From: Deltaproteobacteria bacterium
GTDB lineage: Bacteria > Desulfobacterota > Syntrophia > Syntrophales > JACQWR01
Direction of reading: 5' to 3'
Assembly (NCBI GenBank): GCA_026388415.1
Contig: JAPLJV010000008.1
Coordinates: forward strand, 1 to 64,000
DNA length: 64,000 bases
In this document: positions 4,103 to 43,761 of the stretch, in pieces
Layout of the letters: each line of letters starts with the position of its first letter
Numbering within the stretch: the stretch's first letter is position 1
Program-made: the position numbers and the translations under genes
Notes under the pieces: generated by a model
The model's database searches: none
Seen by the model: only the letters and a program-made list of their open reading frames with translations
What the model was told of the DNA's origin: nothing

Positions 4103-7100
4103 ATGTCATGGTCCTCCATCGTGTACATAGCTGCCTCGTACACCGCCTCTTTAATCACACTGCTTTTGGCCGTTTACGCCTGGCGGCACCGCGATACCGC
4201 GGGCGCAACGGCCCTTGCCGGTGTGATGCTGGCGCTGACAGTGCGGATGGTGGCCTCTGGGCTAAGAAGCATCAGCACGCCGGAAATGTTCATGTACTGG
4301 TTTCGCCTGGGCCTTCTCGGCATGGCGACAGGGCCGGTTTTCTTTTTTGTCTTTGTCCTCCAGCGCAGTGGCTACGGGTGGTGGTTGAGTCGGGGCCGCA
4401 TTGTCACGCTCTTTGCGGTGCCCTTTCTCACAATGGTACTGAACTGGGCGCCCACGCTGCAGCACCTCTTCGTAAGAGAATCTGGCTTGGGTTTCCGCGA
4501 TTCGATGCTGTATTGGAAGGGCGCAGTGGTCTTCGGGCCCTGGTTTTGGGTGTACAGCTTTTACAGCTTTTCGCTGGTGATGATCGCTCTTGTCTTCGTC
4601 GTGATTACGGCGATCCGCTTCCACCTGTATCGGATGCAGGCCATTGCGATACTCGCAGCCGCGATCGCACCGACTGTCGTCAGCGTCCTCCTTGCCTTTC
4701 AAGCTTTGGCCTTTGCCCAATATCTGGTTCCCTGGGCTCTTACCTTTACCGGCGTGATCCTGGCCTGGGCGACCTTTCGCCACCGCCTTCTCGATGTGGT
4801 CCCAGTGGCCCGCAATACGCTGGTAGAGATGATGGGCGATGGGATGCTGGTTGTGGACACCCAAGGTCGCGTGGTTGACCTGAATCAGGCGATGCAGTGC
4901 TTGCTAGCCGGGACGCTGCCTGCTGGCGTTGCGGCCAATCAGGTAATTGGCCAGCAGGCGTCGCAGATTCTGGCCCCGTGGCAAGAGGTGGTGGCTTCCC
5001 TGGACAAAGAAGGGAAAATCCAGTTTGTGACGATTCTGGAAGAGCACGGGAAGCTCCGGCACTTTGACGTTCAGCTGGTCCCTCTCCGCAGCGGCCGCCT
5101 GGTAGTCTGGCACGACATCACCGCGAGCAAAGAGTCCGAGGAAGCGCTGAAGCAGAAAGAAGCAGAGCTGCGTTTGAGAAATCTGCTGTTAGCAACGCAG
5201 CAAGAGGTCTCGATAGACGGGATTCTGGTCGTTGACGAAGTCGGGACGATCATTTCCTATAACCAGAAATTTATCAAGATGTGGGGCATCCCGCCAGAGG
5301 TCGCCCAGTCCCGTTCCGATGAACAGGCATTACAGTCGGTGCTTGACAAAGTTGCGGATCCGGATGGTTTTCTGGCAATAGTCAAATACCTGCATGCCCA
5401 CCTCAACGAGATCAGCCAGGACGAGATTGTCCTCAGAGACGGCAGGGTCTTTGATAGGTATTCGGCACCCATGATCGCGAGCGACCACAAGTATTATGGG
5501 CGGGTCTGGTTTTTCCGCGATATCACCGAACGGAAGCAGGCCGAGGCCCAGAGGGGTGAAGCTGCCGAAGCGATGCGCCAGAGCGAAGAACGCTACCGTC
5601 GGCTGGTAGATTTTTCCCCGGAGCCCATTGTCGTGCATCAGGGCGGCGAGGTGATTTACGTGAACACGGCCGGCGTCAAAGCCATCGGGGCGTCCCGGCC
5701 GGAAGAGCTGATCGGACAACCCATCAAGAAATTTATACACCCGGACTTCTACTCCCTGGTTGAGGAACGTTTGCGACGGATTTATCAGGAAGGACAACCC
5801 ACCGAGTTTTTCGAACTCCGCTTGCTCAATCTATCCGGGCAGCCACTGGATGTGATCTTGGGCAGCACCCTGACCATCTATCAGGGAAAAACGGCGGTGC
5901 AAACATCCTTCCAGGAAATAACCGAGCGAAAACGGATGGAACGGGAGATTCTCGCCGCCAAAGAGGTCGCCGAAACTGCCACCCACGCCAAGAGCATCTT
6001 TCTGGCCAACATGTCGCACGAGATCCGAACGCCCATGAACGCCATTCTTGGCTTTGCCCAGCTTATGCAGCGGGCCCCTGATCTCTCAGAGCAATCGCGT
6101 GAGCACCTCAATATCATCAACCGTAGTGGTGAACACCTGCTGGCACTTATCAATGACATCCTGGAAATGTCGAAAATCGAGGCAGGGCGGGCAGTTTTTA
6201 TCCCGATCACCTTGGACTTGCATTCTCTCCTCCATGACCTCGAGATGATGTTCCGAGTGCGGACCGATTCCAAAAAGCTGCGGTTCCTGTCGGAGAAAAT
6301 TGGGGATGTCCCTCGCTGGGTAATTACAGACGAAGGGAAACTCCGCCAGGTGCTCATCAACCTCTTGGGGAATGCCGTAAAATTCACTGAGGAGGGCGGG
6401 ATCGCCTTGCGTCTCCGTGCGGTAGCCGAAAAGGAGCACACGATAGCACTTCGGTTCGAGGTGGAGGATACGGGTCCGGGCATGGCCGAAGAGGAAATCG
6501 GTCGTCTGTTCCAGGCATTCGAACAGACCAACACCGGGATCAAGAGCGGCGGTACAGGGCTTGGCCTGGCATTGAGCCGGGGATTCATCCAGATCATGGG
6601 GGGATCCATCTCGGTGACAAGCAAGATTGGAAAGGGAACCACATTCCGATTCGAGATTCCAGTCCGAGAAGGCAAAGAGGAAGAGGCGCCACCAAAAGAG
6701 GCAAAAAGACGCGTGCTGGGTTTAAGGCCCGGCCAGAGCGAGATCCGGGTTCTGGTCGCCGACGACAGGGAAACGAACCGTCGTCTTTTGTCGCAGTTGC
6801 TTGAGGTGGTAGGATTTCCGATACGGGAAGTCGTCAACGGGGCGGAAGCGGTTCGCATGGTCCATGAATGGAAACCGCAGGTGGTTCTCATGGACATGAC
6901 CATGCCCGTTATGGATGGCTACGAAGCCACACGGAAGATCAAGGCATCGCCCGACAGCAAGAATACGGTGATCATTGCCGTGACGGCCAGCGTCTTCGAG
7001 GAAGACAAACAGCGGGTCTTAGCCGCAGGAGCCGACGGCTACGTGTCGAAACCATTCAAGGACACCGAGCTTTTTGAAAACATCGGTCGGCTGACCGGAG

Positions 7101-7369
7101 CGGAGTACCTGTATGAAGAAGCAGACGGTAGTGAAAAGGCTGCAGAAACAGCGGACGATGAGACCCTGATGCGCAAGAGCGTTGCCGCGCTGCCCACCGA
7201 CCTTGTCGGCCAACTGATTCATTCCGTTGAGAGAGCTGACCTCGACCAATTGAACGACCTTGTTGGAACGCTGATCACTGACCATCCAACGCTTGCGAAG
7301 CGGATGCGAGAAATGGCCACCCGGTACGAATATGAAGCATTGATCGAGCTTTTATCTTCAGGAGCATGA
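4103..7369 (+). CDS. 7TM-PAS hybrid sensor histidine kinase
   Basis: This 1088-residue inner-membrane kinase has a seven-helix histidine-kinase N-terminal region (residues about 1-225, ending TFRHRLLDVVPVARN). Three PAS-type domains follow (about 235-345, 368-480, 500-615). The HisKA dimerisation helix carries phospho-acceptor His639 in MSHEIRTPMN. The HATPase_c domain is complete (LINLLGNAVKF, DTGPGM, GGTGLGLAL). A receiver domain (about 885-1005) has acceptor Asp931 in VLMDMTMPVMDGYE. A short helical tail of about 65 residues after the receiver could be a degenerate phosphotransfer module. The start has an AGGAG-like site. The gene is separated by only three bases from the downstream receiver-GAF-cyclase gene, so the two are probably co-transcribed and may form one phosphorelay. 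The input signal is not evident. Confidence 0.92.
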   Translation: MSWSSIVYIAASYTASLITLLLAVYAWRHRDTAGATALAGVMLALTVRMVASGLRSISTPEMFMYWFRLGLLGMATGPVFFFVFVLQRSGYGWWLSRGRIVTLFAVPFLTMVLNWAPTLQHLFVRESGLGFRDSMLYWKGAVVFGPWFWVYSFYSFSLVMIALVFVVITAIRFHLYRMQAIAILAAAIAPTVVSVLLAFQALAFAQYLVPWALTFTGVILAWATFRHRLLDVVPVARNTLVEMMGDGMLVVDTQGRVVDLNQAMQCLLAGTLPAGVAANQVIGQQASQILAPWQEVVASLDKEGKIQFVTILEEHGKLRHFDVQLVPLRSGRLVVWHDITASKESEEALKQKEAELRLRNLLLATQQEVSIDGILVVDEVGTIISYNQKFIKMWGIPPEVAQSRSDEQALQSVLDKVADPDGFLAIVKYLHAHLNEISQDEIVLRDGRVFDRYSAPMIASDHKYYGRVWFFRDITERKQAEAQRGEAAEAMRQSEERYRRLVDFSPEPIVVHQGGEVIYVNTAGVKAIGASRPEELIGQPIKKFIHPDFYSLVEERLRRIYQEGQPTEFFELRLLNLSGQPLDVILGSTLTIYQGKTAVQTSFQEITERKRMEREILAAKEVAETATHAKSIFLANMSHEIRTPMNAILGFAQLMQRAPDLSEQSREHLNIINRSGEHLLALINDILEMSKIEAGRAVFIPITLDLHSLLHDLEMMFRVRTDSKKLRFLSEKIGDVPRWVITDEGKLRQVLINLLGNAVKFTEEGGIALRLRAVAEKEHTIALRFEVEDTGPGMAEEEIGRLFQAFEQTNTGIKSGGTGLGLALSRGFIQIMGGSISVTSKIGKGTTFRFEIPVREGKEEEAPPKEAKRRVLGLRPGQSEIRVLVADDRETNRRLLSQLLEVVGFPIREVVNGAEAVRMVHEWKPQVVLMDMTMPVMDGYEATRKIKASPDSKNTVIIAVTASVFEEDKQRVLAAGADGYVSKPFKDTELFENIGRLTGAEYLYEEADGSEKAAETADDETLMRKSVAALPTDLVGQLIHSVERADLDQLNDLVGTLITDHPTLAKRMREMATRYEYEALIELLSSGA

Positions 7370-7372
7370 CCC

Positions 7373-9298
7373 ATGACTAACGTAAGCTGTAGTGATTCGA
7401 TCCAAGGCAATATCCTCGTGGTGGATGATGTCCCCGCCAACCTGACCCTTCTCACAGGCATCCTCAAGGAAGAGGGCCATCTGGTGCGGCCCGTTCCCAG
7501 CGGCAAGCTGGCTCTCAAGGCCGTGGAGATCGAGCCGCCCGACATTATTCTCCTTGATATCATGATGCCGGTCATGGACGGATATGAAACCTGCCGTCAC
7601 CTGAAAGATAATCCGAAAACAAGAGACATACCAATCGTCTTCCTGACTGCGAAGACTGAAGTGGAGGATGAAACGAAGGGTTTCGAACTGGGTGCGGTTG
7701 ATTACATTACCAAGCCGATCAGCCCGCCCGTGGTACTGGCGAGGGTGCAAACCCATCTGCGGTTGAAAAGGATGCAGGATTCTTTGAAGGATCAGAATCA
7801 ATTTCTGGATGCAGCGGTGCAGAAACATACCAAGGATCTTGTCGCCGCCCAGGACAAGCTAGGATACCTGATCCAAACGGGGCTCGAACTCGGACTGGAA
7901 CATGACCGCATTGCGCTCCTGCGCAAGATCCTTTTCGGCGCCAAGACCCTGCTCAATTGCGATGCCGGTACGCTCTACATGGTGACGGAACACAATACGC
8001 TACGCTTTGCCCAACGTACAAAAAGCGACGATTTGTCGTCCTTCGAAATTCCTCTTTACGACGAGGCTGGCGCCCCTGTCGAACGCTTCATGGCCACCTG
8101 GTGTGCACTGCACAACGAGCCTATCATCGTAGATGACGTGTACAGTGAAACCAGGTTCGACGTTTCCGGCGCCAAGAAGATGGATGCCGAATCGGGTTAC
8201 CGCACCGTGTCCATGCTGACCGTGCCGCTCTCACCACGCGAGGGCGAGGTTATCGGGGTTATGCAATTTATCAATGCCCTTGATCCCGAGACCGGCAAGG
8301 TGATTCCCTTCCCGCCGGAACTGCTGCGCTTCGTTGGGGCCATGGCCGCCCAGTCGGCAGTGGCACTCGACAACTTCCAACTCCTCGCTGAATCCGAAAG
8401 ACGATTAAAAATAACTAAAGCTTATACGAGAGATTCGTTGGTGCGCATTATTCAGGATGGGGGTGATCCAACATCATACCAACCAAAAGAAATAAATATT
8501 GCTGTCTTTTTCAACGACATTCGTGACTTTACTAGTTTTTCCGAAAAAATGCCTCCTATTGACGTCGTAAAGTTCTTAAATACATATTTTGATATGATAA
8601 ATGAGATTATCATTCGAAACCGTGGAGAAATTGATAAGCTTATAGGCGATTGCGTTATGGCGGCGTTTGGAGATCCGTTGGACGCTGTCCGTGCAGCGAT
8701 TGAAGCAAATCGCGCGCTCAATGAATACAATAGAAAACGCGTCGAACAAAATCTAAGAATCGTTAAAACAGGAATTGGCATAACATATGGTAGCGTAATT
8801 ATAGGCAATATTGGTTCAGCCAGTAAATTAGATTACACGCTTATAGGCGATACGGTAAATACTGCATCACGCTTAGAATCGTTGACAAAGCATTATGGTG
8901 TTTCAACAATATTGTCAGATGATCTTGTTAAATGTTTGCATGGAATATCTGATGTCAGGTTTTTGGATATTGCTCTAGTGAAGGGCAAAAAGGAGCCGAT
9001 AAAAATATATGAATTATATGAACAGAAGACCGATCAAATAAAAGATATTTACAAACGCATACAGCCGGAGCTCGATCGAGCATTTCATCTATACTATGTT
9101 GGAGAAATAGACGAAGCCTATGAATTATACTGCAAAATAGCCAAACGCATAGGATCTTTTGAAAGTTGTGCAAATGAGATTATAGACCCGGCACTCATTT
9201 TCTATAAGGAAAGATGTGAAAGAATCCTTAGGGAAGCTCGATCCGGCCTTATTAATATGAAATTGTGGAATGGAGTATACGAGTTCAAGGATAAATAG
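7373..9298 (+). CDS. Response regulator with GAF and class III adenylate/guanylate cyclase domains
   Basis: This 641-residue protein has an N-terminal receiver (residues 12-130; acceptor Asp62 in ILLDIMMPVMDGYE, switch Lys in YITKPI) and a GAF domain (about 165-330). A class III cyclase catalytic domain follows (about 375-550). The two metal-binding Asp are D382 (FFNDIRDFTSF) and D426 (KLIGDCVMAAFGDP). The transition-state Asn/Arg lie in GDTVNTASRLE. Lys422 at the purine-specifying position favours ATP as substrate, giving cAMP; this is an inference. The last 90 residues are a helical tail. The DNA becomes markedly A+T-richer from about 8400, exactly where GAF ends and the cyclase linker begins, suggesting a domain fusion. 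It is the likely phosphotransfer partner of the hybrid kinase directly upstream. Confidence 0.9.
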   Translation: MTNVSCSDSIQGNILVVDDVPANLTLLTGILKEEGHLVRPVPSGKLALKAVEIEPPDIILLDIMMPVMDGYETCRHLKDNPKTRDIPIVFLTAKTEVEDETKGFELGAVDYITKPISPPVVLARVQTHLRLKRMQDSLKDQNQFLDAAVQKHTKDLVAAQDKLGYLIQTGLELGLEHDRIALLRKILFGAKTLLNCDAGTLYMVTEHNTLRFAQRTKSDDLSSFEIPLYDEAGAPVERFMATWCALHNEPIIVDDVYSETRFDVSGAKKMDAESGYRTVSMLTVPLSPREGEVIGVMQFINALDPETGKVIPFPPELLRFVGAMAAQSAVALDNFQLLAESERRLKITKAYTRDSLVRIIQDGGDPTSYQPKEINIAVFFNDIRDFTSFSEKMPPIDVVKFLNTYFDMINEIIIRNRGEIDKLIGDCVMAAFGDPLDAVRAAIEANRALNEYNRKRVEQNLRIVKTGIGITYGSVIIGNIGSASKLDYTLIGDTVNTASRLESLTKHYGVSTILSDDLVKCLHGISDVRFLDIALVKGKKEPIKIYELYEQKTDQIKDIYKRIQPELDRAFHLYYVGEIDEAYELYCKIAKRIGSFESCANEIIDPALIFYKERCERILREARSGLINMKLWNGVYEFKDK

Positions 9299-32004: not shown

Positions 32005-32595
32005 GGAGAGGATTACTGTTTGGAATCAAGCTCTTTCAAGCTGAAAACTTTTTTCCCGGAATAATCTTAGACAGGCATCTGCCACATCTGCATCATAAAT
32101 TGTCCCTTTATTGTTCTCAATCTCTTCCAGGGCTGCATTTAATCCCAATGCTGGACGATAGGGCCGGTGGGATGCCATGGATTCCACAACATCTGAAACA
32201 GCCAGAATGCGGGCCTCCATAAGAATGTCATCCCCTTTCAGATTTCTTGGATAGCCCGAACCATCCATCCGTTCATGATGCTGAAAGACAATCTCCGCCA
32301 GTGGCCAAGGGGATTCCACATCCTTGAGAATTTCGTATCCTTTGCGAGAGTGTTCCTTGATCAGTCTAAACTCGATTTCAGACAGCTTTGTCGGCTTGGA
32401 CAATATCTCTGCCGGGATGGATAGCTTTCCGATGTCATGGATCGAACCGGCCATGCGGATGCCCTCGATCTTATCCGGGGGAAGTTCCATCTCCGTGGCA
32501 ATCGCACGGGCCAGATCCGCTGACCGGATCTGGTGACCGGCGGTATAAGGATCTCGTGTTTCCACGGTTGACACCATGACCTGGATGGTTGTTTG
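32005..32595 (-). repeat. Duplicated HD-GYP-encoding segment, copy 1
   Basis: The 3' end of the receiver-PAS-HD-GYP gene is highly similar at DNA level to 41596-42186. Similarity runs from about the IQVMVS codons, through the whole HD-GYP domain and stop codon, to some 20 bases beyond the stop, then ceases. The end points are approximate by eye. Confidence 0.8.
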
Positions 32596-35058
32596 AACCG
32601 CCCTTCTGAGGTTTTTGACTGTACGCTGAAGTTCCTCCTCCGCCTGCTTCTTCTCGGTGATGTCGCGGACGACGGATACAGACCCAATGATATTGCCAGT
32701 GATATCTCTGACCGGGGCTGCATTGACCTGGCGATACCGAAATTCTCCGCTTGCCGGAATTTTAATGATCTCCTCCTGGTTCGTTACCACTTCTCCTGTG
32801 AGGGCGCGCAGGGGCGGAGCCTCTTTGACAGGCCTCTCGCTACCATCCGGGCGCAACACGACCAGGCTCTTCGCCAGCTTTTCTACTTCGATCATCTGAT
32901 TAGGGTCAATGCAGAAGTGTTTGAGAGCAGATGGGTTTGCTATGGTGAATGTCTTATGTGTATCTGCAAACCAGACCTCGTCGGTCATGCTGCTGATCAG
33001 TGAGGATAGTCTGGTTTTCTCTTCTTGAACAGATTCCAGAAGTGCCCGGATTTCATATTCCGCCCGCTTGAGATCGGTGATGTCCGCGGAAATACCCAGC
33101 AGGTATTCGGGTTCTCCGTTTTCGTCCGGGATCGGCACTTTCTTGGTGTGCAGGATGCGCTCTCCTTTTTTCCGGGTCTGAATGGGTTCTTCCGGGATAT
33201 CAACAACCTTCTTCCCGTATAGAACATCCCGGTCATTCTCAGTAAAGAAATCTGCCTGTTCCTTCGAGAAGAAATCATAATCGTTCTTCCCCAACAGGTC
33301 GTCCCTGGAATAACCCAGCAATTCCTCTCCCGCCCGGTTGAAACGGGAGAACCGGAGTTCCTTGGCATCCTTGAGGAAGATCATGTCCGGGATATTCTCG
33401 ATAATCGAGTCCAGGAACACATTCATCCGGCGCATTTCCTCCTCCCGCTGCTTGCGCTCCGTAATATCTACGATAGCACCTCTAAGCCCCACAGGTTTGC
33501 TATCACTGTAAATTACACTTGAGATTACAATGGCAGGAAAGACAGACCCATCTAACCTCATTAAAGTATATTCAGTGCCTCTTATTTGCTCCCCCTTTAA
33601 CAGCCCTTGAATGTTCTTGCTCGATTTATCAATGTCTTCAGGTGAAATTAGCTGCCATGCTTTAAAACCTTTCTTTAAATCCTCTTCTGTACCTATAAAA
33701 GTTTCATAAATAGCGCGGTTGACAGAAGTAATATTGGCTTCCAAATCCATATCATATACCGGGATTGGCAAAAAATCATATAGATCACGATATTTCTTCT
33801 CGCTCTCCTGTAGTGCCTCCTCCGCCTGCTTGCGGGTGGTTTGGTCCTCTGCTTGGACGATAATCAAATCCGGGAAAATGAAACCATACTGCACGAAAAG
33901 GAATCTACCCGGTGCGAAGCGACGGGAACTTATTTCCCGTTTAATAGCACGCTGTTCCTGGAAGCAAAGATTCAAATCACGGAGGATCTGAGGTCTGTCT
34001 TTATACAGTTCCACGGCACTGGCTCCGAGATAGTCGAAGACTTTGCCGTTGGTCAGTTGCTTGGCGGCCTTGTTGAAATCTAAAAGAGTGAAATCGTCCC
34101 CTTTTTTTTTCCAGGTGAAGGTCGGGGTGGGACTATCCTGATACAGGCGTTTGAAACGTTCTTCGCTGTTCCGCAGCTCCTCCTCTGCCTGCTCACGGTC
34201 CGTAATGTCGCGGGCAACAGAAATGATTCCGATGATCTTGCCTTCGCGCATAACGGGCGACCCACTGACTTCACCATACTTTATGGTTCCATCCTTTGCG
34301 ATAAACCGATAAATCGTCGCATGAATTGTGTCACCCTTTAAGATCAAACTCATATCGGCTAAAGCCTGCTCAAAAGATTCCGGCGTAAGGACATTTCCTA
34401 AATCGGAAACAGGTCGGCCAATGAAATCTTGTGGTTTGTATCCCAATATTTTCTCCACGCTCGGAGATATGCTAATAATGTTGAGATCTGTATCAAGTGT
34501 ATAAATAACATCCGACACATTCTCAAAAGATAAACGATAGCTCTCCTCCAATATCCTCAACTCCTGATTAGCAATCTCCAGATCCAGCATTTTCTTTTCA
34601 AGTTTACTGAAAAGGATTTCATTGTACTGCCTGAAAACCTCCATTTCTTCCTCAAGCGGTTTAGTCGCCACTTGCTTGACCACATAGTTTTCTTCCAACA
34701 CCTCTTTTAGAATACTCATCAGTATATCCGGTTCCTGGGGTTTGATGATGAATCGCTCCGCCCCGAGGCTTAATGCAAAATCCTCGTTCTTGGATCCGGT
34801 ATAGGTGGCGGTGTAAAATACCAAGGGGATATGCTTGAGTGTATCATCTGATTTCCATCGCCGGCATAAGGCGTAGCCATCCATCACGGGCATCAGAATG
34901 TCCGTGACAATCAGATCCGGAGGGTTTAGAATGGCTTTATCCAGCGCATCCTTGCCGTTTTCCGCCGAAATCACTTCAAAACCGTATCCCTTCAGCAGGG
35001 TTTCCAGCATGTATAGATTGGTGCTGTCGTCGTCAACAATCAAGATTGTTTTTTTCAT
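32026..35058 (-). CDS. Receiver-multi-PAS-HD-GYP protein (predicted c-di-GMP phosphodiesterase)
   Basis: This 1010-residue cytoplasmic protein has an N-terminal receiver (LIVDDDSTNLYML; acceptor in VTDILMPVMDGYA; Lys in FIIKPQ) and a coiled-coil linker. Four or five PAS domains follow between about residues 175 and 800, each ending in a GIISVARDITDREQAEE-type linker. A C-terminal HD-GYP domain (about 830-1000) carries His874/Asp875 in SIHDIGK and HHERMDGSGYP. All metal ligands and the GYP motif are present, so c-di-GMP hydrolysis is expected. The start overlaps the stop of a degenerate response-regulator tail. Its HD-GYP domain is nearly the same as that of the protein at 41614-43761. Confidence 0.92.
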   Translation of the reverse strand: MKKTILIVDDDSTNLYMLETLLKGYGFEVISAENGKDALDKAILNPPDLIVTDILMPVMDGYALCRRWKSDDTLKHIPLVFYTATYTGSKNEDFALSLGAERFIIKPQEPDILMSILKEVLEENYVVKQVATKPLEEEMEVFRQYNEILFSKLEKKMLDLEIANQELRILEESYRLSFENVSDVIYTLDTDLNIISISPSVEKILGYKPQDFIGRPVSDLGNVLTPESFEQALADMSLILKGDTIHATIYRFIAKDGTIKYGEVSGSPVMREGKIIGIISVARDITDREQAEEELRNSEERFKRLYQDSPTPTFTWKKKGDDFTLLDFNKAAKQLTNGKVFDYLGASAVELYKDRPQILRDLNLCFQEQRAIKREISSRRFAPGRFLFVQYGFIFPDLIIVQAEDQTTRKQAEEALQESEKKYRDLYDFLPIPVYDMDLEANITSVNRAIYETFIGTEEDLKKGFKAWQLISPEDIDKSSKNIQGLLKGEQIRGTEYTLMRLDGSVFPAIVISSVIYSDSKPVGLRGAIVDITERKQREEEMRRMNVFLDSIIENIPDMIFLKDAKELRFSRFNRAGEELLGYSRDDLLGKNDYDFFSKEQADFFTENDRDVLYGKKVVDIPEEPIQTRKKGERILHTKKVPIPDENGEPEYLLGISADITDLKRAEYEIRALLESVQEEKTRLSSLISSMTDEVWFADTHKTFTIANPSALKHFCIDPNQMIEVEKLAKSLVVLRPDGSERPVKEAPPLRALTGEVVTNQEEIIKIPASGEFRYRQVNAAPVRDITGNIIGSVSVVRDITEKKQAEEELQRTVKNLRRAVQTTIQVMVSTVETRDPYTAGHQIRSADLARAIATEMELPPDKIEGIRMAGSIHDIGKLSIPAEILSKPTKLSEIEFRLIKEHSRKGYEILKDVESPWPLAEIVFQHHERMDGSGYPRNLKGDDILMEARILAVSDVVESMASHRPYRPALGLNAALEEIENNKGTIYDADVADACLRLFREKSFQLERA

Positions 35059-35162
35059 TGTTTCTCCCCATGATGATCTTTTTTTGATAAATGCTTTTCA
35101 ACCTGTACTGCAAGCATATCCGGGGCGATCGGTATTTCTATATAGCCGCTGCAGCCCGCCTC
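35055..35162 (-). pseudogene. C-terminal remnant of a response-regulator receiver
   Basis: In the gap between two large sensor genes a frame reads EAGCSGYIEIPIAPDML and then AVQVEKHLSKKDHHGEKQ to a TGA that overlaps the next start. It aligns with the end of the receiver protein at 39486-39872 (EAGCNGYIEKPIDPDTF, VAKVEQHL). The switch Lys is Ile here. The homology begins at the stop codon of the Cache-GAF-HD-GYP gene, so that gene's 3' end replaced the rest of the receiver gene by recombination. Confidence 0.75.
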
Positions 35163-38157
35163 AACCCAGATACATTGAAACATTGACACTGTCGATCTGT
35201 TCCGGCTTGAGGTAGCGCTTGGCGTACTTCAAGTATACGCCCGAAAGAAGGAACAGGTCGAACAGCCCTGGATCGATGTGCCTGTCTTTCTTGAAAAAGG
35301 AGAGGATCTTCACTGACTCGGAGAGCGTCTTGGCCTTTTTGTATGGGCGGTCGGAAGCGGTAAGGGCTTCGAAGATATCGGCAATCGCCATGATGCGGGC
35401 CGGCACCGACAAATCGTCTTTTGTCAGACCACGCGGGTACCCTGAGCCCGTCAACGTTTCGTGATGAGTGCCCGCATATTCGGGAACCCTTTGCAGTTCT
35501 CTCGGAAACGGCAGAGCATCCAGCATGACGACAGTCTGGATAATGTGCTCGTTGATCTTGAAGCGCTCCTCCTCGGAGAGCGTGCCCCGTGCCACGCACA
35601 GGTTGAGGATCTCGCCGAAATTGTAAAGGCTTTCCGGAACCTGCAACTTGAATCCGTACTTGGGATCGAGCGCTTTGTCGACACCCCGGGGGATGATGTG
35701 GTAGGGCTTGTCGGAGAGGAGGGGTTCGACCGCCGGTAGCTCGGAGGCGGACACGCTTTCATAGCGCCGCAGTTCCTCGTGCGACAGGCCGAGGCGATCG
35801 TCGAAATGACGCAGCCAGGTCTGGCCGGCGATCCTCTTGATCCGCTCGATGCGCTCCGGAGCCATGAATTCGCCCCCGATATTGCATTCCGCCACGAAGG
35901 CGAAGTCGTCGGTCAATTGAGCGCGACGCCCGCGGTATTCCCTGATGGCCGCCTCGGAATCGCCGCCGTCCTGGATTTCCTTGAGACAGGCGATCTCGGC
36001 GTCCCGCAACAGCACTTCGAACCGCATGCGCACTTCGTGGATGCGGTTGTAGATCGTTTCGAGTTTGGTTGCCTTGTCGACCACGTACTCGGGGGTTATA
36101 ACCTTTCCGCAATCGTGGAGCCACGCGCCGATCCGGAACTCCCGCCACTCTTCATCCGAATAGAAATGGAAGTCAGCGAGTGGCCCTTCCTCCACCCGGG
36201 AGGCCTCTTCCGCCAGCATTATCGCCAATTCAGGCACCCGCTCGCAATGGCCGCCGGTGTAAGGACTCTTCGTGTCAATTGCGCCTGCCACGAGCCTGAT
36301 CAACGAATCCATCAACGTCCGCTGCGCCTGCAGCAGGTTTTGGTTCTCCAGCGCGACTGCCGACTGTGAGGCCAGCGCCTCGACGAAACCTACCAATTCC
36401 CTCGGAAACGGAATAACCTTCCCGGTATCCGGATCCAGGGCATTCATAAACTGCAGGACGCCGATCACTTCGCCTTCACGCGGCGACATGGGAACGGTCA
36501 GCATCGATTCGGTTCGATATCCCGTCTCGGCGTCGAAGCGGTGCGAACCGCTCAGATCGAACCGCTTTTCGGAATAGACGTCGTCGATGACGACGGCTTC
36601 GTTGTGCAGTGCCGCGAAAACGGACACGTACTTCTCGTTGATTTCTCCCGTTACCGGGTCTCTGAACGGGATCTCGAACGAAGGCAGTGAATCGTCCTTG
36701 GTACGCAATGCAAACGCGAGTGTTCCTTTATCGGTTTTCAGATACATCGTTCCTGCATCGCAATTACACAACTGCTTTCCTCCAAAGAGGATGTGCCGGA
36801 GCAGCGTCTGCCGGTTGCGCTCCCGTGACATCAGGATACCGTTCTCCACCAGGCTCGCCAGTTTCTGCTCGGCTACCGTCAGGGCTCTGGTGCGTTGATG
36901 CAGCGTACTCTTCATGACTTTCTGGGCCTGGGCCAATGCTATGACTTCGTAGAGAATCGTAGGCAGACGACCGACTTCGCCGGAGAAGTCCATTTTTGAG
37001 ATGCGCTCTGCGTCCTTGGCGAGAATGGAGAGGGAGCGCCCAACCCGGCGGGCACCAATAACAGCGAGGGGGATCACGACCAGCAGAAAGGCGATCGTCA
37101 GGAGGATGACCTGGTTCCGCGCCTCGGTGATCGGACCGGAAAAGTCACGCATCGGCGCAAAGACGCCGATGCGGAACTCGGCGCCCGGTGCGGCGGGATA
37201 CGCGTAATATGCAAACACGAACTTTTCTCCCCCGACGTTGATGATCCTCGCACGCGACGCATCGTCCTCACTTTGCCATGCTTCCAATACGGCAAGGTGG
37301 GGACTGGCGGTCTGGGAGATCGGTGTCAATGAGGCCACTTCCTTCAGGTTGTAGGCCTGGTAGGCGCTGTGGTGAGCCAGGATCCTATTGTGGTGGTCGA
37401 GAATGACAATCGCGCTGGCCGGCGTCAGTGGAATTTTCGCCAGGAAATCGTGAAGCGCGCCCAGGCTCAGGTCTGCTCCAAGCACTCCGATCCCTCCCCG
37501 GAGCGGGCTGGAAATCGTAATCCCCGGTTCCCGGGAAGAGGCAAAAATATACGGGTCCGTGATCGCGACGGGCGGAGTCTGTTTTGCCCCATCATACCAG
37601 GGCCGCTGGGTCGGGAAATACTGGGTCTGTCCTTCTTTCGAACCAATAACTTGCCGGTCGGAGGACCAGAATTCCCAGGTTTCCAAGCGCCTCCCTCCCT
37701 CCTTCCGGACGATTTTCCGCAGGGCGAACCGGGTGTTCTCGGGCGCTGCCAAGGAGGCAAGCAAGTTCTGGTTGCCCTTGGTATTCACCACCTGAAAGAA
37801 ATCGTCGTTCTCAAGCCCGAAATAGACGGAATATAGGCTTTCTTCGCTCTCCAACTGGGACATGAAGGTCACCACCATGTCATGGTCGTTCAAGCGTCCT
37901 TCCTCGGCGAAGCGCGCGCGCCTAGCGCCGGCCTGCACCGTGACCTGGCGGCTTGTGCCCCCGATGAGATTCCGCAGCCGCTCCACACCGGTCTGTGCTA
38001 TGAGGAAGAAGCGTTGCTTTGCGCTGTCTTCCGCCATGGCGTTGAATTTGGTGATGACGACGACCAGAATCGAGGCAGTGAGCACAAAGACGATGCAGAG
38101 CATGGCGATGACGGCCCAGTTATGGAAGCGTAGATTCCGACCAAACAAGAGATGCAT
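35161..38157 (-). CDS. Cache-GAF-HD-GYP sensor phosphodiesterase
   Basis: This 998-residue inner-membrane protein has an N-terminal helix (VIAMLCIVFVLTASILVVVI) and a periplasmic dCache-type sensor (about 45-335). A second helix (VILLTIAFLLVVIPLAVIGA), a HAMP-like linker and a GAF domain (about 440-600) follow. The HD-GYP-type domain has His681/Asp682 in WLHDCGK and the second motif HHETLTGSGYP near residue 899. These motifs are about 218 residues apart, against about 50 in the neighbouring HD-GYP protein, so an extra subdomain of about 165 residues is inserted. The GAF domain is closely related to that of the receiver-GAF-cyclase protein at 7373-9298. FecR and OmpA genes lie directly upstream in the same direction. 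Confidence 0.9.
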   Translation of the reverse strand: MHLLFGRNLRFHNWAVIAMLCIVFVLTASILVVVITKFNAMAEDSAKQRFFLIAQTGVERLRNLIGGTSRQVTVQAGARRARFAEEGRLNDHDMVVTFMSQLESEESLYSVYFGLENDDFFQVVNTKGNQNLLASLAAPENTRFALRKIVRKEGGRRLETWEFWSSDRQVIGSKEGQTQYFPTQRPWYDGAKQTPPVAITDPYIFASSREPGITISSPLRGGIGVLGADLSLGALHDFLAKIPLTPASAIVILDHHNRILAHHSAYQAYNLKEVASLTPISQTASPHLAVLEAWQSEDDASRARIINVGGEKFVFAYYAYPAAPGAEFRIGVFAPMRDFSGPITEARNQVILLTIAFLLVVIPLAVIGARRVGRSLSILAKDAERISKMDFSGEVGRLPTILYEVIALAQAQKVMKSTLHQRTRALTVAEQKLASLVENGILMSRERNRQTLLRHILFGGKQLCNCDAGTMYLKTDKGTLAFALRTKDDSLPSFEIPFRDPVTGEINEKYVSVFAALHNEAVVIDDVYSEKRFDLSGSHRFDAETGYRTESMLTVPMSPREGEVIGVLQFMNALDPDTGKVIPFPRELVGFVEALASQSAVALENQNLLQAQRTLMDSLIRLVAGAIDTKSPYTGGHCERVPELAIMLAEEASRVEEGPLADFHFYSDEEWREFRIGAWLHDCGKVITPEYVVDKATKLETIYNRIHEVRMRFEVLLRDAEIACLKEIQDGGDSEAAIREYRGRRAQLTDDFAFVAECNIGGEFMAPERIERIKRIAGQTWLRHFDDRLGLSHEELRRYESVSASELPAVEPLLSDKPYHIIPRGVDKALDPKYGFKLQVPESLYNFGEILNLCVARGTLSEEERFKINEHIIQTVVMLDALPFPRELQRVPEYAGTHHETLTGSGYPRGLTKDDLSVPARIMAIADIFEALTASDRPYKKAKTLSESVKILSFFKKDRHIDPGLFDLFLLSGVYLKYAKRYLKPEQIDSVNVSMYLG

Positions 38158-38237
38158 AATAACTCCTTTCGACGGGATCCGTCGTACAGACCCCCAGCGC
38201 TCCCTCAGTACAACGCCCGGAGCCGGAGGGCGAGTGA

Positions 38238-38858
38238 TTATCGAACGGTGATCTCCACCCGGCGGTTTTTCGGCTCGGGTGTGTTGTCCGGTGTGGCGAC
38301 AAGCAGATTCCTCTTACCATGAGAGGCGATCGTTATATCATGCACCTGCAGGCCCGCCGTCCTGATGATTTCCGCCACCGACTGTGCCCGCTGCAACCCG
38401 AGCCTCTCGTTGGCCTCGCTGTTCCCCACGGTATCGGTATGGCCGATCACCGATACATCCGGTGCGGGGTGCTTTTCCGCCGCAGCCAGGATCTCCGGAA
38501 TCAGGGCTTCCGACTCGGCTGTCAACACCGTCCCGCTGGCCTTGTAGTAGAGCATGAAGCTGACCGGCAGTGGTGGCCGTGCGGCGAGGGCTTCGCCAAA
38601 GTCCCGGTTGATCTTGCCTTCATCTATACCGTAGGGCTTGCCCGAGCCATCGTCCAGATCAACGGCGGAGCGGGCTTCGTTCAGCAGGACATCGCCTTTC
38701 ACGCCGCTCACCGACAACTGTCCCACCGTGCCGTCCGCATTGTCCATCAGAACGACGTAGGACTTCGGCGCCTGGGCGGCCGGCGGGGTCGTGGCGCAGC
38801 CCATGGCAACGATCAGGACGGCAAAAACGACAAACGCTGGTTTCAGGTTGCGAATCAT
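38238..38858 (-). CDS. OmpA family lipoprotein
   Basis: This 206-residue protein has a lipoprotein signal with lipobox VAMGC, so it is expected to be lipid-anchored. After an N-terminal domain of unknown type comes an OmpA C-terminal domain that binds peptidoglycan (TVLTAESEALIPEIL, VIGHTDTVGNSEANERLGLQRAQSV, HGKRNLL, NRRVEITV). The start at 38858 overlaps the FecR stop (ATGA), so the two are co-translated. It lies 80 bases before the Cache-GAF-HD-GYP gene. Confidence 0.9.
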   Translation of the reverse strand: MIRNLKPAFVVFAVLIVAMGCATTPPAAQAPKSYVVLMDNADGTVGQLSVSGVKGDVLLNEARSAVDLDDGSGKPYGIDEGKINRDFGEALAARPPLPVSFMLYYKASGTVLTAESEALIPEILAAAEKHPAPDVSVIGHTDTVGNSEANERLGLQRAQSVAEIIRTAGLQVHDITIASHGKRNLLVATPDNTPEPKNRRVEITVR

Positions 38859-39313
38859 GGCTTTTCCCTCCCGTTCTGCGGCTCGACCTTGACAAGAAAG
38901 CGGGTGCCGCGGATTCCGATCGTGCCTGTCGGCGTCTTCATGGTCACAGAGCTCGGTTTGAGCTTGGCGATCACGCCCGAGATAACCTGCAGGGAGCCTT
39001 TCGACATGCGCGTACCGAACTTCAGGTTGTCCTTCCCCGGCGCATAGAGGTACTCGTCCACCGTCAGTTCGGTGTCCGGCCCGAAGGACATGACGGTATT
39101 GTCCTTGAAGGTGACGCCCATGGCCCCCTTGGTTCCGGTCATCAAAGTGTTTCCAAGTTTGATGGGAGTACCGACCTCGGCCTTGACCGGCTTTCCGGCA
39201 TCGATCACTGCTGCGCTGCCCGAGACCGTCTTGACGAAGCCAATCGCATCCTGGGCCCATGCCGGCGATCCGGCCAGGAGCATCAGGATGATTACTAGGA
39301 TGAAGCGTATCAT
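38855..39313 (-). CDS. FecR domain periplasmic protein
   Basis: This 152-residue exported protein has a signal peptide (MIRFILVIILMLLAGSPAWA) followed by a FecR domain (GNTLMTGTKGAMGVTFKDNT, FGPDTELTVDEYLY, KTPTGTIGIRGTRF). In this stand-alone form the FecR fold is periplasmic and is often found beside OmpA proteins and membrane cyclases or other sensors; it is not the iron-dicitrate anti-sigma regulator. It is first in the FecR, OmpA, Cache-GAF-HD-GYP order. Confidence 0.9.
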   Translation of the reverse strand: MIRFILVIILMLLAGSPAWAQDAIGFVKTVSGSAAVIDAGKPVKAEVGTPIKLGNTLMTGTKGAMGVTFKDNTVMSFGPDTELTVDEYLYAPGKDNLKFGTRMSKGSLQVISGVIAKLKPSSVTMKTPTGTIGIRGTRFLVKVEPQNGREKP

Positions 39314-39423
39314 GATTTTCCTCCCATTAGCGCGTGTGGGTGTTCAACGCCCATTCCGAGATGCGTGATCCCGCGTTTTCACAAGTGAAAAGTTAATCAG
39401 CTTCATCAGTTAACTTTTTTAAA

Positions 39424-39455
39424 CTTGGCCCGATTTTTTTAAAAAAACGGGCAAG
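39424..39455 (-). terminator. Palindromic hairpin after the receiver gene
   Basis: A near-perfect inverted repeat (CTTGCCCG with seven T against seven A and CGGGCCAAG) lies 31 bases after the stop of the receiver gene at 39486, followed on the - strand by T and A runs. It could terminate that operon. Its A/T core makes it almost symmetrical, so it may work in both directions. Confidence 0.55.
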
Positions 39456-39485: not shown

Positions 39486-39872
39486 TCAAAGCTCTCCTGT
39501 AGTCCTTACGGGCAAATGTTGTTCAACTTTTGCCACAAAGGTATCCGGATCAATTGGTTTCTCTATATATCCATTACAGCCGGCTTCCATGACCTTTTCA
39601 CGGTCACCGGACATTGCATAGGACGTCACGGCAACAATGGGAGTATCTGCAAGGTCCAGGTTCTGCCTTAAGTTGTGGGCGACGGCGTAACCATCCATGA
39701 CAGGCAACTGGATATCCAGGAGGATCAGATCCGGTTTTAGCGAAGCCGCCATTTCAATGCCTGCTTTACCATCCAGCGCGGCGAAGACTTCATAGTTGCT
39801 CTGCTCAAGGATGAACCTGACCAGATAAAGATTCTGTTCGTTGTCTTCGATGACAAGGATTTTTCCCTTCAT
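39486..39872 (-). CDS. Receiver-only response regulator
   Basis: This 128-residue protein is a single CheY-like receiver (ILVIEDNEQNLYLV; acceptor Asp in LILLDIQLPVMDGYA; Thr in VAVTSYAMSG; Lys in GYIEKPI). It has no output domain, so it acts by protein contact or as a phosphorelay intermediate. The start at 39872 follows AGAGGAAAG and overlaps the stop of the kinase gene (ATGA), making that kinase its obvious partner. Confidence 0.92.
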   Translation of the reverse strand: MKGKILVIEDNEQNLYLVRFILEQSNYEVFAALDGKAGIEMAASLKPDLILLDIQLPVMDGYAVAHNLRQNLDLADTPIVAVTSYAMSGDREKVMEAGCNGYIEKPIDPDTFVAKVEQHLPVRTTGEL

Positions 39873-41560
39873 GGTTCTTTCCTCTCTTTCGGCAGGGAAA
39901 AGCTGAACGTGCTTCCCGCACCCCATTCGCTTGTCACCCGGATTTGCCCTCCCATGAGTTCTACGAGCCTTTTACTGATGGATAGGCCCAGACCCGTCCC
40001 TTCATATTTCCGGGTCATTCCCGAATCGATCTGCCTGAAGGCCCGAAAAAGGGTTTCTAAGTCTTCTGTCTTGATGCCGATGCCCGTATCCACAACCCTT
40101 ATCGTTACGTTGTCCGCTTCCGGTTTGCATTCTATTTTCACCGAACCTTTTTCCGTAAACTTTACGGCATTGCTGATCAGATTCAGAAGAATCTGCTCAA
40201 CGCGCCTTCGGTCGCTGTTTATGGTTTCAATTTCGGGAGAGACTGCATAGGTGAGTTCAAGACCCTTTTTGCCGGTAAGCGGACGCGCACTCTCCACAGC
40301 CTTTTCCATCATGGAACGAAGGTCAAAGTTTTCATAGGCGATCTGCAACTGTCCTGCTTCGATCTTTGATAAGTCGAGAACATCATTGATTAACGAAAGC
40401 AGGTGTTGTGCACTGCCGCGCACCATGTTCAGTTGTTTTTTCTGCTCGTCATTTAAAGGTCCGACAATCCCCTGCAGAATGATGCCGGTGAACCCGATGA
40501 TCGAGTTCAGCGGCGTTCGCAGTTCGTGCGACATCGTCGCCAGGAAGGCTGATTTAATCCGGTCGGCGTCCTGAGCTTTTTCCATCGCATTTGCCAATTC
40601 GGCCGTGCGCAGTTTGATGCGCTGTTCCATTTCCTGGTTGATTTGCCTAAGTTCCAAGGTGCGCGCATTCACCTGAACCTTTAACAGAACACCGGCAACC
40701 AGACTAATGAGCAGCGCAAGGCCAGCAATGAGCGCCAGGGTCTTCATCCATGCCGGAAGTTTAAATACGGTTTTTTCGGTTGTCCACCGCTTCAATGACT
40801 CGTAATATAGTGACTGAGAATCATTCTTTAGTTCCAGCAGGTGTTTATCAATGGTTTTCAACAGTTCATCCGGAGCCCCCCGGGGCGCTGCAAAAAAAAG
40901 TTGAGTTGGATGGAATATAACCGCTGTCTCTTCCAGCCCCATCTTATGTGCATGCACCAACCCGTAGAAACGATTGGTAATGGCGGCGTCGGCCTCCCCT
41001 CTGGCAACCACCTCGAAGGCCTGTTTGTAATCCGGCAGCGAAATGAGGGTGATTTTAAATCTGAAGTTTTCAGCGAGCTGCCTGAAAGCCTCCTGTTGAA
41101 CCGAACGTTCCAGAACAACTATTCTTTTCCCATCCAAATCTACTATCGAACGGATTTGCTTGTCTTTGCTGGCATATACCTGAAACCAGTCGGACAGGAC
41201 CGGTTCCTTGTGAAAGGAGAATACTTTTTCGCGCTCCAGGGAATATGCCACATCGGGCATCAAGTCTATCTCGCCTTTGGACAGGCGATCCAATCCCTCC
41301 CCCCACGTGCCGGGCACATAGCGCAAGGTCCATCCTTCGCTTTTAGCGATGTGCTCGATGATATCAATGAAGATGCCTGCGGGTTTGCCGGGCTCGGGAA
41401 TAAACACCTTGGGAGCGTTTTCATAAACGCCCACACGCACGATGCGATCTTTGCCGGCCGCCGATGAATTGTCAGGATAAATCGGTATCAAAAGAACCAG
41501 AAGCGGGCATAAAATCAGCCATCCGTAATAAAGGACAAACAATTTTGTCTTGAGTTTCAT
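39869..41560 (-). CDS. Histidine kinase with periplasmic solute-binding sensor domain
   Basis: This 563-residue membrane kinase has an N-terminal signal/anchor helix (LFVLYYGWLILCPLLVLLI). A type-3 family solute-binding domain follows (about 40-275; RIVRVGVYENAPKVF, GIDLMPDVAYSLERE, AITNRFYGL). A second helix (TLALIAGLALLISLVAGVLL), a coiled coil, HisKA (FLATMSHELRTPLN with the phospho-His) and HATPase_c (LLNLISNAVKFT, DTGIGI, GTGLGLSI) complete it. Such sensors bind amino acids or other small molecules. The start at 41560 follows GAGGGTAAG; an upstream extension overlaps the HD-GYP gene. It is co-translated with the receiver gene downstream. Confidence 0.92.
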   Translation of the reverse strand: MKLKTKLFVLYYGWLILCPLLVLLIPIYPDNSSAAGKDRIVRVGVYENAPKVFIPEPGKPAGIFIDIIEHIAKSEGWTLRYVPGTWGEGLDRLSKGEIDLMPDVAYSLEREKVFSFHKEPVLSDWFQVYASKDKQIRSIVDLDGKRIVVLERSVQQEAFRQLAENFRFKITLISLPDYKQAFEVVARGEADAAITNRFYGLVHAHKMGLEETAVIFHPTQLFFAAPRGAPDELLKTIDKHLLELKNDSQSLYYESLKRWTTEKTVFKLPAWMKTLALIAGLALLISLVAGVLLKVQVNARTLELRQINQEMEQRIKLRTAELANAMEKAQDADRIKSAFLATMSHELRTPLNSIIGFTGIILQGIVGPLNDEQKKQLNMVRGSAQHLLSLINDVLDLSKIEAGQLQIAYENFDLRSMMEKAVESARPLTGKKGLELTYAVSPEIETINSDRRRVEQILLNLISNAVKFTEKGSVKIECKPEADNVTIRVVDTGIGIKTEDLETLFRAFRQIDSGMTRKYEGTGLGLSISKRLVELMGGQIRVTSEWGAGSTFSFSLPKERKEP

Positions 41561-41595
41561 TTTCGACTTACCCTCAGTCAGTTCAGAATTGCAGC

Positions 41596-42186
41596 GAGGA
41601 TTACTGTTTGGAATCAAGCCCTTTCAAGCTGAAAACCTTTCTCCCGGAATAATCTTAGGCAGGCATCTGCCGCATTTGCGTCATAAAACGTCCCTTTATT
41701 GTTCTCAATCTCTTCAAGTGCCGCATTTAATCCTAATGCGGGACGATAGGGCCGGTGGGAGGCCATGGATTCCACGACATCGGAGATAGCCATGATGCGG
41801 GCCTCCATGAGAATGTCATCCCCTTTTAGATTTCTTGGATATCCCGATCCATCCATGCGTTCATGGTGCTGGTAGACTATCTCTGCCAGGGGCCAGGGAG
41901 ATTCTACATCCTTCAGCATCTCGTATCCTGTTTGGGCATGTTCTTTAATTAGGGAAAACTCAATGTTTGTCAGCTTAGTGGGTTTGGACAATATCTCCGC
42001 GGGGATGGATAATTTTCCGATGTCATGGATGGAACCTGCCATCCGGATTCCATCGATTTTCTCCTGAGGCAATCCCATCTCCGTGCCGATGGCACGGGCA
42101 AGGTCCGCAGACCGGATCTGGTGACCGGCCGTATAGGGATCTCTGGTCTCCACGGCCGACACCATGACCTGAATGGTTGTCCCGAT
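41596..42186 (-). repeat. Duplicated HD-GYP-encoding segment, copy 2
   Basis: This segment matches 32005-32595 through the HD-GYP codons, the stop codon and about 20 bases of 3' non-coding DNA; upstream of this the two genes differ completely. The pattern points to a recent duplication or gene conversion of a whole output-domain module. Confidence 0.8.
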
Positions 42187-43761
42187 GGCTTTATGCAGGC
42201 GCTCCAGGGCCCCACGCAGCGACTTCTCTGCAACGTCTCTTTGGATAACCAGAGCAACGGTGCTACTGAGTCCATCCAGCATTGCATCTTCTGAGGATAG
42301 TATCGGGTGTTTTGCGAAGAGGGCCAGAACCCCCATTGTCTTTCCACCGGGAACGCGTAGCTGGTATCCTACGAACGACACGAGTCCGAGTTCGCGTGCC
42401 CATTCGCGGTTGTGAACCCGAGGATCATTCTGTACGTCGTTTGTGAGGAAACTGTGATCATCCTCTGACGCGATGTGTCCGATCTTGTAGCAACCGAAAG
42501 GAACGCGGCGGTGAATCTTGCCGTCTGTATGTATGTAGCGGCCAGAACTCGCCAACAAATGCAGACACCGGTCTCGGAAACGGCAGATATGCGGTCCTTC
42601 ATTCACTTCGGCATGGACGCAGCCCTGCTCGCAAAGATCACCGGGCTGAATCAGCCAGATTCTACAAAAATCAGTATCGAAGAGACTGACAACGCTGTCA
42701 GTTATAACTCTGAGTTTTTCTTCAAGCGTAGCCGGTGCAAGAAGCGACTGTTGGAGTAGGTTGACACCCTGCTGCAACACCAGCATTTTTTCGCGTCCCT
42801 CCTCCGCCTGCTTTTTTTCGTTAATGTCACGGAAGATGCCAATAAGATAAGGCATTCCCCCGATGGTAATGTTGGCAGCGCCTATATCGGCATAGAAGAT
42901 TGACCCGTCTTTTCTCAATGACGGCAAGCTTTCGGCAAGAACTTTCTCCCCTTTTATCATTTTTCCAAATTCATCTTGAACACGGGAGATATCCTCCTTT
43001 GGGTGGATATCATAGATGGTAAGACTTTCGATCTCTGCTTTTGTATACCCCAGCATGGAACATATCGCAGTGTTACCCTGAAGAAATTTTTTGGTTATAG
43101 GATCAGCAATCAGAATCCCGTCACTGGCTCTATCAAAAATTGTCTTGAATTTTTCCTCACTCTTCAGAAGCGCATCCTCCGTCCGCTCACGCAGCAGTCG
43201 TTTGACCATCAGCACTCCCAGCAAGGCGGCTCCCAGTGGATAGATCACCAGGACCGGTAATGCGATATTTGAAAGTACCCGCAGGGCTGTCGCCCAGGGC
43301 AGCGAGAACATCAGGCCCAGCATGGTCAAATGAATCACCATGCCGAAAAGGTAGAGCTCTTGCCAGGAAATTTCGGCCAGGGGACGGCGGCGAAAGTGAC
43401 GCCAGGCGATCCCGGTCGCCCCTGAAGCGAGGATCACAGCGATACCGGTCCAGGCTCCTGTTCCTCCCTGATAGAAACGAAACGCTGCGGTCATTGCCAT
43501 CGCTATTGTGGTGGGGAAAAAACCGAAAAAGAGTCCGGATATGCCAAGCAATATCGAACGTGTATCAAATACGATGCCCGGCCCGAATGCCCAAGGCGTC
43601 AGCATGACGGTGATGCCGATGGCGCCGAGAGCGAGACCGACAAGCGCTTTCCAGAACGAAGATTGCCCTACACGCCACTGGCTCGCGGCCACGTCAAAGA
43701 GGAAAGCCACTGCCAGCAAGAAAGTGGCATTCTGAACCAAGCCGAGAAAGGATGCATTCAT
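41614..43761 (-). CDS. 5TM-PAS-GAF-HD-GYP membrane sensor (predicted c-di-GMP phosphodiesterase)
   Basis: This 715-residue protein begins with five or six hydrophobic helices of the LytS/YhcK 5TM type (residues about 1-195, including GLFFGFFPTTIAMAMTAAFR). A PAS domain follows (about 205-325), then a Cys-rich GAF-like domain (about 340-510; DLCEQGCVHAEV, CRFRDRCLHLL). The C-terminal HD-GYP domain has complete motifs (SIHDIGK, HHERMDGSGYP). The Cys cluster could bind a metal or sense redox state, which is an inference. The gene is 53 bases upstream of the histidine kinase gene and may be co-transcribed. A structured leader with a terminator-like hairpin precedes it. Confidence 0.92.
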   Translation of the reverse strand: MNASFLGLVQNATFLLAVAFLFDVAASQWRVGQSSFWKALVGLALGAIGITVMLTPWAFGPGIVFDTRSILLGISGLFFGFFPTTIAMAMTAAFRFYQGGTGAWTGIAVILASGATGIAWRHFRRRPLAEISWQELYLFGMVIHLTMLGLMFSLPWATALRVLSNIALPVLVIYPLGAALLGVLMVKRLLRERTEDALLKSEEKFKTIFDRASDGILIADPITKKFLQGNTAICSMLGYTKAEIESLTIYDIHPKEDISRVQDEFGKMIKGEKVLAESLPSLRKDGSIFYADIGAANITIGGMPYLIGIFRDINEKKQAEEGREKMLVLQQGVNLLQQSLLAPATLEEKLRVITDSVVSLFDTDFCRIWLIQPGDLCEQGCVHAEVNEGPHICRFRDRCLHLLASSGRYIHTDGKIHRRVPFGCYKIGHIASEDDHSFLTNDVQNDPRVHNREWARELGLVSFVGYQLRVPGGKTMGVLALFAKHPILSSEDAMLDGLSSTVALVIQRDVAEKSLRGALERLHKAIGTTIQVMVSAVETRDPYTAGHQIRSADLARAIGTEMGLPQEKIDGIRMAGSIHDIGKLSIPAEILSKPTKLTNIEFSLIKEHAQTGYEMLKDVESPWPLAEIVYQHHERMDGSGYPRNLKGDDILMEARIMAISDVVESMASHRPYRPALGLNAALEEIENNKGTFYDANAADACLRLFREKGFQLERA

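Follow-up and report, generated by a model that had tools for sequence, protein, structure and literature searches.

The gene trio examined here has three close counterparts among described systems, all of which include FecR. The operon MXAN_2063-MXAN_2062-pmxA of Myxococcus xanthus encodes a FecR lipoprotein, a LysM protein and the Cache-HAMP-HD-GYP protein PmxA, which reportedly prefers cyclic GMP-AMP (cGAMP) over cyclic di-GMP (c-di-GMP) (PMC8844925, PMC4877007). In Campylobacterota, a CHASE2 adenylate cyclase clusters with FecR, a TPR protein and a cAMP phosphodiesterase (PMC9239204). The BiofilmReg operon of Burkholderia consists of a response regulator, a LysM-FecR protein and a CHASE2 histidine kinase (PMC5192318). 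These FecR-CHASE2 and FecR-HD-GYP links have been reported piecemeal; no paper joining them was found in the open-access literature that was searched. The trio considered here encodes a FecR-domain protein, an OmpA-family lipoprotein and a membrane HD-GYP phosphodiesterase. It lies in a 64,000-nt stretch of a Syntrophales genome (assembly GCA_026388415.1, contig JAPLJV010000008.1), hereafter the window (Table 1).

The FecR-OmpA pair is supported as a real conserved unit that is coupled to membrane signalling enzymes. Its association with HD-GYP proteins is real and recurrent, and the window is a variant without CHASE2. Our preferred explanation of the locus as a whole, held with moderate confidence, is that the trio was acquired by transfer and cut down from a four-gene CHASE2 operon, with FecR-OmpA acting as an envelope pair. 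The source operon would have comprised a CHASE2-class III nucleotide cyclase, FecR, the OmpA lipoprotein and a (dCache)-GAF-HD-GYP protein; the CHASE2 cyclase would be the part missing from the window's cassette.

Table 1. Features of the trio and of its insertion site (window coordinates; GC3, GC content at third codon positions; REC, receiver; RR, response regulator)
Feature	Position	Strand	Details
FecR-domain protein	38855..39313	-	152 aa; PF04773 E 1.1e-8, above curated cut-off
OmpA-family lipoprotein	38238..38858	-	206 aa; PF00691 E 2.3e-13
dCache-GAF-HD-GYP membrane phosphodiesterase	35161..38157	-	998 aa; Pfam HD_5 E 3.1e-42, GAF E 2.3e-10
Horizontally acquired GC-rich island, coincides with trio	35100..39350	.	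58.6% GC, GC3 0.73-0.78
REC gene remnant, C-terminal 35 codons (EAGCSGYIEIPIAPDMLAVQVEKHLSKKDHHGEKQ, then stop)	35058..35160	-	Right junction of cassette
Response regulator upstream of cassette, resident	39486..39926	-	PF00072; adjoins RR-HD-GYP gene in relatives
SBP_bac_3 sensor histidine kinase, resident	39869..41617	-	Orthologs 59-69%
REC-PAS-HD-GYP protein downstream of cassette, resident	32026..35058	-	Pfam; arrangement in relatives

The FecR-OmpA pair and its neighbours in Syntrophales

A first-pass annotation of this DNA had described the three genes as co-directional and the OmpA gene as co-translated with fecR. The coordinates were confirmed, the domains were recognised by Pfam, and an ATGA overlap places the OmpA start (38858) within the FecR stop. 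The OmpA gene has its own ribosome-binding site, GGGAGGG; the HD-GYP gene begins 80 nt past the end of the OmpA gene, and all three genes have a purine-rich ribosome-binding site.

Read by eye, FecR consists of a signal peptide and scarcely more than the FecR domain, and is predicted to be periplasmic; no transmembrane helix or cytoplasmic anti-sigma part was found in its 152 amino acids. The domain name would suggest a FecIRA-like anti-sigma regulator. Because the protein is only a signal peptide plus a FecR domain, this can hardly be its role, and no sigma factor or TonB receptor was recognised among the scanned neighbours.

The OmpA protein has the lipobox LIVAMGC (read by eye; C21 is present in 88% of a 50-row alignment), followed by a subfamily-conserved N-terminal region and a C-terminal peptidoglycan-binding OmpA domain. 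HTD (140-142), R157 and NRRVE (198-202) are at or near invariance, D142 and R157 being invariant in the 50 rows. The OmpA domain, the conserved Asp and Arg and the lipobox together identify a peptidoglycan-binding lipoprotein.

A search with this protein over 155 Syntrophales genomes gave 50 full-length loci of the window's OmpA subfamily, whose neighbourhoods were translated in six frames and tagged with a panel of domains that Pfam had identified beforehand. FecR is encoded immediately upstream of OmpA in all 50. A CHASE2 protein adjoins the pair in 32 loci, a lower bound because some of the other 18 lie near contig ends. The CHASE2 outputs are HD-GYP (15 loci), class III cyclase (10), kinase-receiver (3) and SpoIIE phosphatase (3, convergent), and one protein is truncated. 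The CHASE2-HD-GYP neighbours have HDxGK in 15 of 15 cases and the consensus HHE..GYP in 11; one of the remaining four is cut by a contig end. As the constant part of these loci, FecR-OmpA is likely to be the carrier of the envelope signal.

The pairing of FecR-OmpA with HD-GYP, which the first-pass annotation had wished to see counted across genomes, thus recurs in many of them. A chance neighbourhood was rejected in view of orthologous trios in three other genomes and the invariable position of FecR. The genes for CHASE2-SpoIIE phosphatases convergent with FecR-OmpA are located at L119 8212-10326, L121 1204-3318 and L123 754-2886.

Lineage, transfer and insertion of the trio

In a tree built from 191 columns of the 50 OmpA proteins, the window protein and nine further ones form a 100/100 clade. 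Each of these nine adjoins a CHASE2 cyclase; the window is without one. Partner type tracks the tree, with 10 changes versus 27.6 in shuffles (0 of 200 shuffles as low). The order CHASE2 cyclase, FecR, OmpA, HD-GYP protein occurs in genomes G019, G020 and G054, whose FecR proteins are 74-77% identical to that of the window. The (dCache)-GAF-HD-GYP gene is facultative, being present in four of the ten clade loci; all four genomes retain the order FecR-OmpA-HD. It is absent at the locus in G053, G061, G067 and G068, where a kinase that binds cyclic mononucleotides (cNMP) follows OmpA instead. A possible four-gene operon in G060 would extend over a contig break; the gene order fits, the contig ends do not overlap, and the operon was not counted.

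Examination of the available DNA around the HD-GYP orthologs of G067, two Betaproteobacteria metagenome-assembled genomes and Vibrio sp. AND4 revealed neither FecR nor OmpA. The pair thus goes with CHASE2, and the HD-GYP gene is an optional addition. The Vibrio strain carries three tandem relatives of the protein (L088 3098-13159; HD-GYP part 54-56% identical), likewise without FecR or OmpA. Plasmid carriage of the HD-GYP protein was considered and rejected, the only relatives being less than 60% identical.

The trio coincides with a GC-rich island that had gone unremarked in the first-pass annotation; the flanking genes on both sides have 48-51% GC and a GC3 of 0.54-0.57. Synonymous divergence (dS) of the trio from G019, G020 and G054 is 0.59-1.00, compared to ~2.0 for PNPase, the single housekeeping control gene. 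The REC remnant, also unremarked before, starts at the stop codon of the HD-GYP gene, overlaps the ATG of the next gene and shares 70% DNA identity over 74 nt with the 3' part of the response regulator gene upstream of the cassette. Eight or more relatives have the histidine kinase, response regulator and RR-HD-GYP genes in one contiguous run, with no trio in between. The GC step, the low dS, the REC remnant and the uninterrupted relatives therefore identify the trio as a foreign cassette in a resident signalling cluster. The ratio of nonsynonymous to synonymous substitution is ~0.17-0.29, with no acceleration in FecR, relative-rate tests showed no relaxation on the window branch, and the FecR-OmpA pair is still under constraint.

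Of the FecR-OmpA-CHASE2 module, the window has FecR upstream of OmpA and lacks an adjacent CHASE2. No remnant of the CHASE2 cyclase was found upstream of the window's FecR, and no ortholog of the clade's cyclase elsewhere in this draft genome (98.1% complete). On contigs C42 and C13 the CHASE2 cyclases share just ~31% and ~28% identity with that of the clade, and no FecR was found on these two contigs; the one on C40 has a separate FecR-OmpA. Relocation of the cyclase within the genome was rejected, since none of the remaining CHASE2 cyclases is an ortholog of the clade's. Likewise rejected as the lost partner was a CHASE2 fragment on the C39 edge, which probably represents the N-terminus of the C40 cyclase. 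The C39 edge (L142) carries this N-terminus and the C40 edge (L141) a headless CHASE2 cyclase, probably one gene split by assembly.

With three CHASE2 cyclases in the genome, two of them without FecR, the trio might also consist of loose neighbours. FecR-OmpA would then serve another CHASE2 cyclase in trans (C40, C42 or C13, for example) or act alone, and the HD-GYP protein would respond to an amino-acid signal of its own. The 18 of 50 pairs that have no CHASE2 neighbour are consistent with this, as are the HD-GYP orthologs that occur by themselves in G067, Betaproteobacteria and Vibrio. However, the trio was transferred as a single cassette, its FecR-OmpA-HD order is conserved across four genomes, and we regard such independence as unlikely.

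Some further features of the window were recorded. A+T-rich palindromes, GCCCGATTTTTTTAAAAAAACGGGC and TTTTCACAAGTGAAAA, lie at 39370-39450, in the gap that separates the upstream response regulator from the cassette, and may be a terminator or operator. The HD-GYP domains of the cluster's two other HD-GYP proteins (32026-35058 and 41614-43761, both on the minus strand) are almost the same, as if they had recently been duplicated or converted. A caspase-like peptidase (Peptidase_C14) fused to DUF4019 is encoded at 473-1813 (+).

The HD-GYP protein and possible routes of an envelope signal

The HD-GYP protein of the window contains YTGGH (633), HDCGK (681), NEH (869-871), HHE (898-900), GSGYP (904-908), AIAD (924-927) and DRPYK (936-940). 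HDxGK, HHE, GYP and the downstream Asp are thus all intact, in agreement with the HD-GYP output proposed in the first-pass annotation and not with an inactive domain. A large insertion between HDxGK and the second His, which had not been remarked on, separates the HD and GYP halves of the domain. The Glu of trinuclear PmGH-type enzymes, four residues before the first His, was not found (Tyr633 in YTGGH versus PETQNH in PmGH). The predicted substrate is c-di-GMP or 3',3'-cGAMP, the nearest solved relatives being of both kinds. The genome encodes makers of c-di-GMP (10 GGDEF matches) and of cyclic mononucleotides (9 cyclase matches). A soluble GAF-HD-GYP paralog family with a shorter insertion is common in the order Syntrophales; of 155 genomes, 77 gave matches at E 1e-60, most of them through such proteins, and in L057, L061 and L062 these have a conserved gene neighbourhood.

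The dCache_1 match (42.9 bits) is just short of the cut-off of 45; by fold, the domain clearly matches dCache chemoreceptors, and its model corresponds to those for amino acids. The motif Y-x4-R-x-W-Y...D (Y180, R185, W187, Y188 and D229) is invariant in five orthologs and aligns with PctA, and a PctA-like pocket of the amino-acid type is predicted. In PctA, Y121 and W128 presumably belong to this motif. The PctA motif residues R126, Y129 and D173 have been described (PMC10104139).

The GAF domain resembles those of PDE5 and adenylate cyclases. Of the NKFDE motif, N572 and F584 are kept and the K, D and E positions are changed. The GAF domain is 56% identical to that of a REC-GAF-class III cyclase encoded ~27 kb away in the window (7373-9298, +), which comes after a 7TM-PAS histidine kinase (4103-7369). 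These resemblances would fit participation of the HD-GYP protein in the CHASE2 cyclase's cNMP circuit, with the GAF domain binding, or the HD domain hydrolysing, cAMP or cGMP. Genes for a cNMP-binding histidine kinase and an MBL-cNMP protein adjoin the operon in the clade, which also speaks for such a circuit. The full HD-GYP motif set nevertheless points to cyclic dinucleotides and NKFDE is largely lost, which makes a cNMP loop quite improbable.

In the mechanism that we propose for the transferred, reduced trio, and for which we infer physical contacts, ligand, substrate and signal direction, the OmpA lipoprotein would be anchored in the outer membrane and hold peptidoglycan. FecR, a small periplasmic partner of OmpA, would connect it with the periplasmic portion of a signalling enzyme in the inner membrane. 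The usual enzyme would be a CHASE2 sensor, with cyclase, HD-GYP, kinase or phosphatase as exchangeable outputs. In the window, the HD-GYP phosphodiesterase, with its own Cache sensor and cytosolic GAF domain, is the cassette's sole remaining signalling enzyme. Most likely, the Cache ligand causes it to reduce the level of a cyclic dinucleotide, either c-di-GMP or cGAMP. FecR-OmpA would provide a second input, from the envelope, that modulates this enzyme or a different sensor of the inner membrane.

The first-pass annotation had gone further: FecR and OmpA were to read the envelope state and pass the signal directly to the Cache domain of a c-di-GMP-hydrolysing HD-GYP protein. Such a route is consistent with the tight spacing and common direction of the three genes, with their transfer as a unit and their continued constraint in the absence of the cyclase, with the intact HD-GYP motifs and the GGDEF proteins, and with the pmxA operon of M. 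xanthus (PMC8844925, PMC4877007). However, the whole Cache domain is deleted in frame from the HD-GYP protein of G054. Two membrane helices and GAF-HD-GYP remain there, and FecR-OmpA is retained beside the enzyme. Cache-bearing orthologs also occur without the pair, the Cache domain has a ligand motif of its own, and CHASE2 is the usual partner of FecR-OmpA. The association with HD-GYP therefore stands, whereas the hand-over to Cache is not supported, because the Cache-less G054 keeps the pair and because of the pair's CHASE2 ancestry; we give this route a low, though not negligible, probability for the window, where the HD-GYP protein is the cassette's one signalling enzyme. A more far-reaching suggestion, to which we also give a low probability, is that FecR-OmpA is a general plug-in envelope sensor for inner-membrane enzymes of exchangeable output (cyclase, HD-GYP, kinase or phosphatase), here re-wired from CHASE2 to a dCache HD-GYP protein, so that envelope and amino-acid signals jointly set the dinucleotide level.

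Several points weigh against the preferred explanation of a transferred trio reduced from a CHASE2 operon. No CHASE2 was seen beside 18 of the 50 FecR-OmpA pairs, the window included, and the pair may therefore work in trans or on its own as well. The genome is a draft, the dS comparison has one control gene, and the structure model of the HD-GYP protein (mean pLDDT 58) is reliable for the Cache part only. Cyclic-nucleotide binding by the GAF domain is doubtful, because NKFDE is mostly not kept.

Comparison with known systems

The set of loci, with a constant FecR-OmpA pair, four CHASE2 outputs, a CHASE2-less variant and a natural Cache deletion, makes testable both the sensing role of CHASE2 domains and the part played by FecR-only periplasmic proteins next to them.

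The window's HD-GYP protein shares the metal-binding and GYP motifs with V-cGAP3 (PDB 5z7c) and PmGH (PDB 4mcw), and the SPYTxGH start of its domain is similar to that of V-cGAP3. It differs from both in the large insertion inside the HD-GYP domain and in its dCache and GAF input. With PctA-type amino-acid dCache sensors it has the Cache motif and fold in common, but its output is HD-GYP and there is no chemotaxis signalling domain.

Like the trio, the pmxA operon has three genes, encoding FecR, a peptidoglycan-type protein and, last, a membrane Cache-HD-GYP phosphodiesterase. Its FecR is a lipoprotein, however, and instead of OmpA there is LysM/FN3. PmxA, which we liken to the window protein by description and not by sequence, has 569 amino acids and a HAMP domain and lacks GAF. 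The Campylobacterota clusters resemble the FecR-OmpA loci in that a FecR-domain envelope protein has a CHASE2 class III cyclase and a phosphodiesterase as neighbours. In the accessible part of that source an OmpA lipoprotein is not reported and the phosphodiesterase is of another type; CHASE2 is present there and absent in the window (PMC9239204). The BiofilmReg operon also combines peptidoglycan-binding and FecR functions beside a CHASE2 enzyme, but LysM and FecR are fused in one protein and the output is a kinase.

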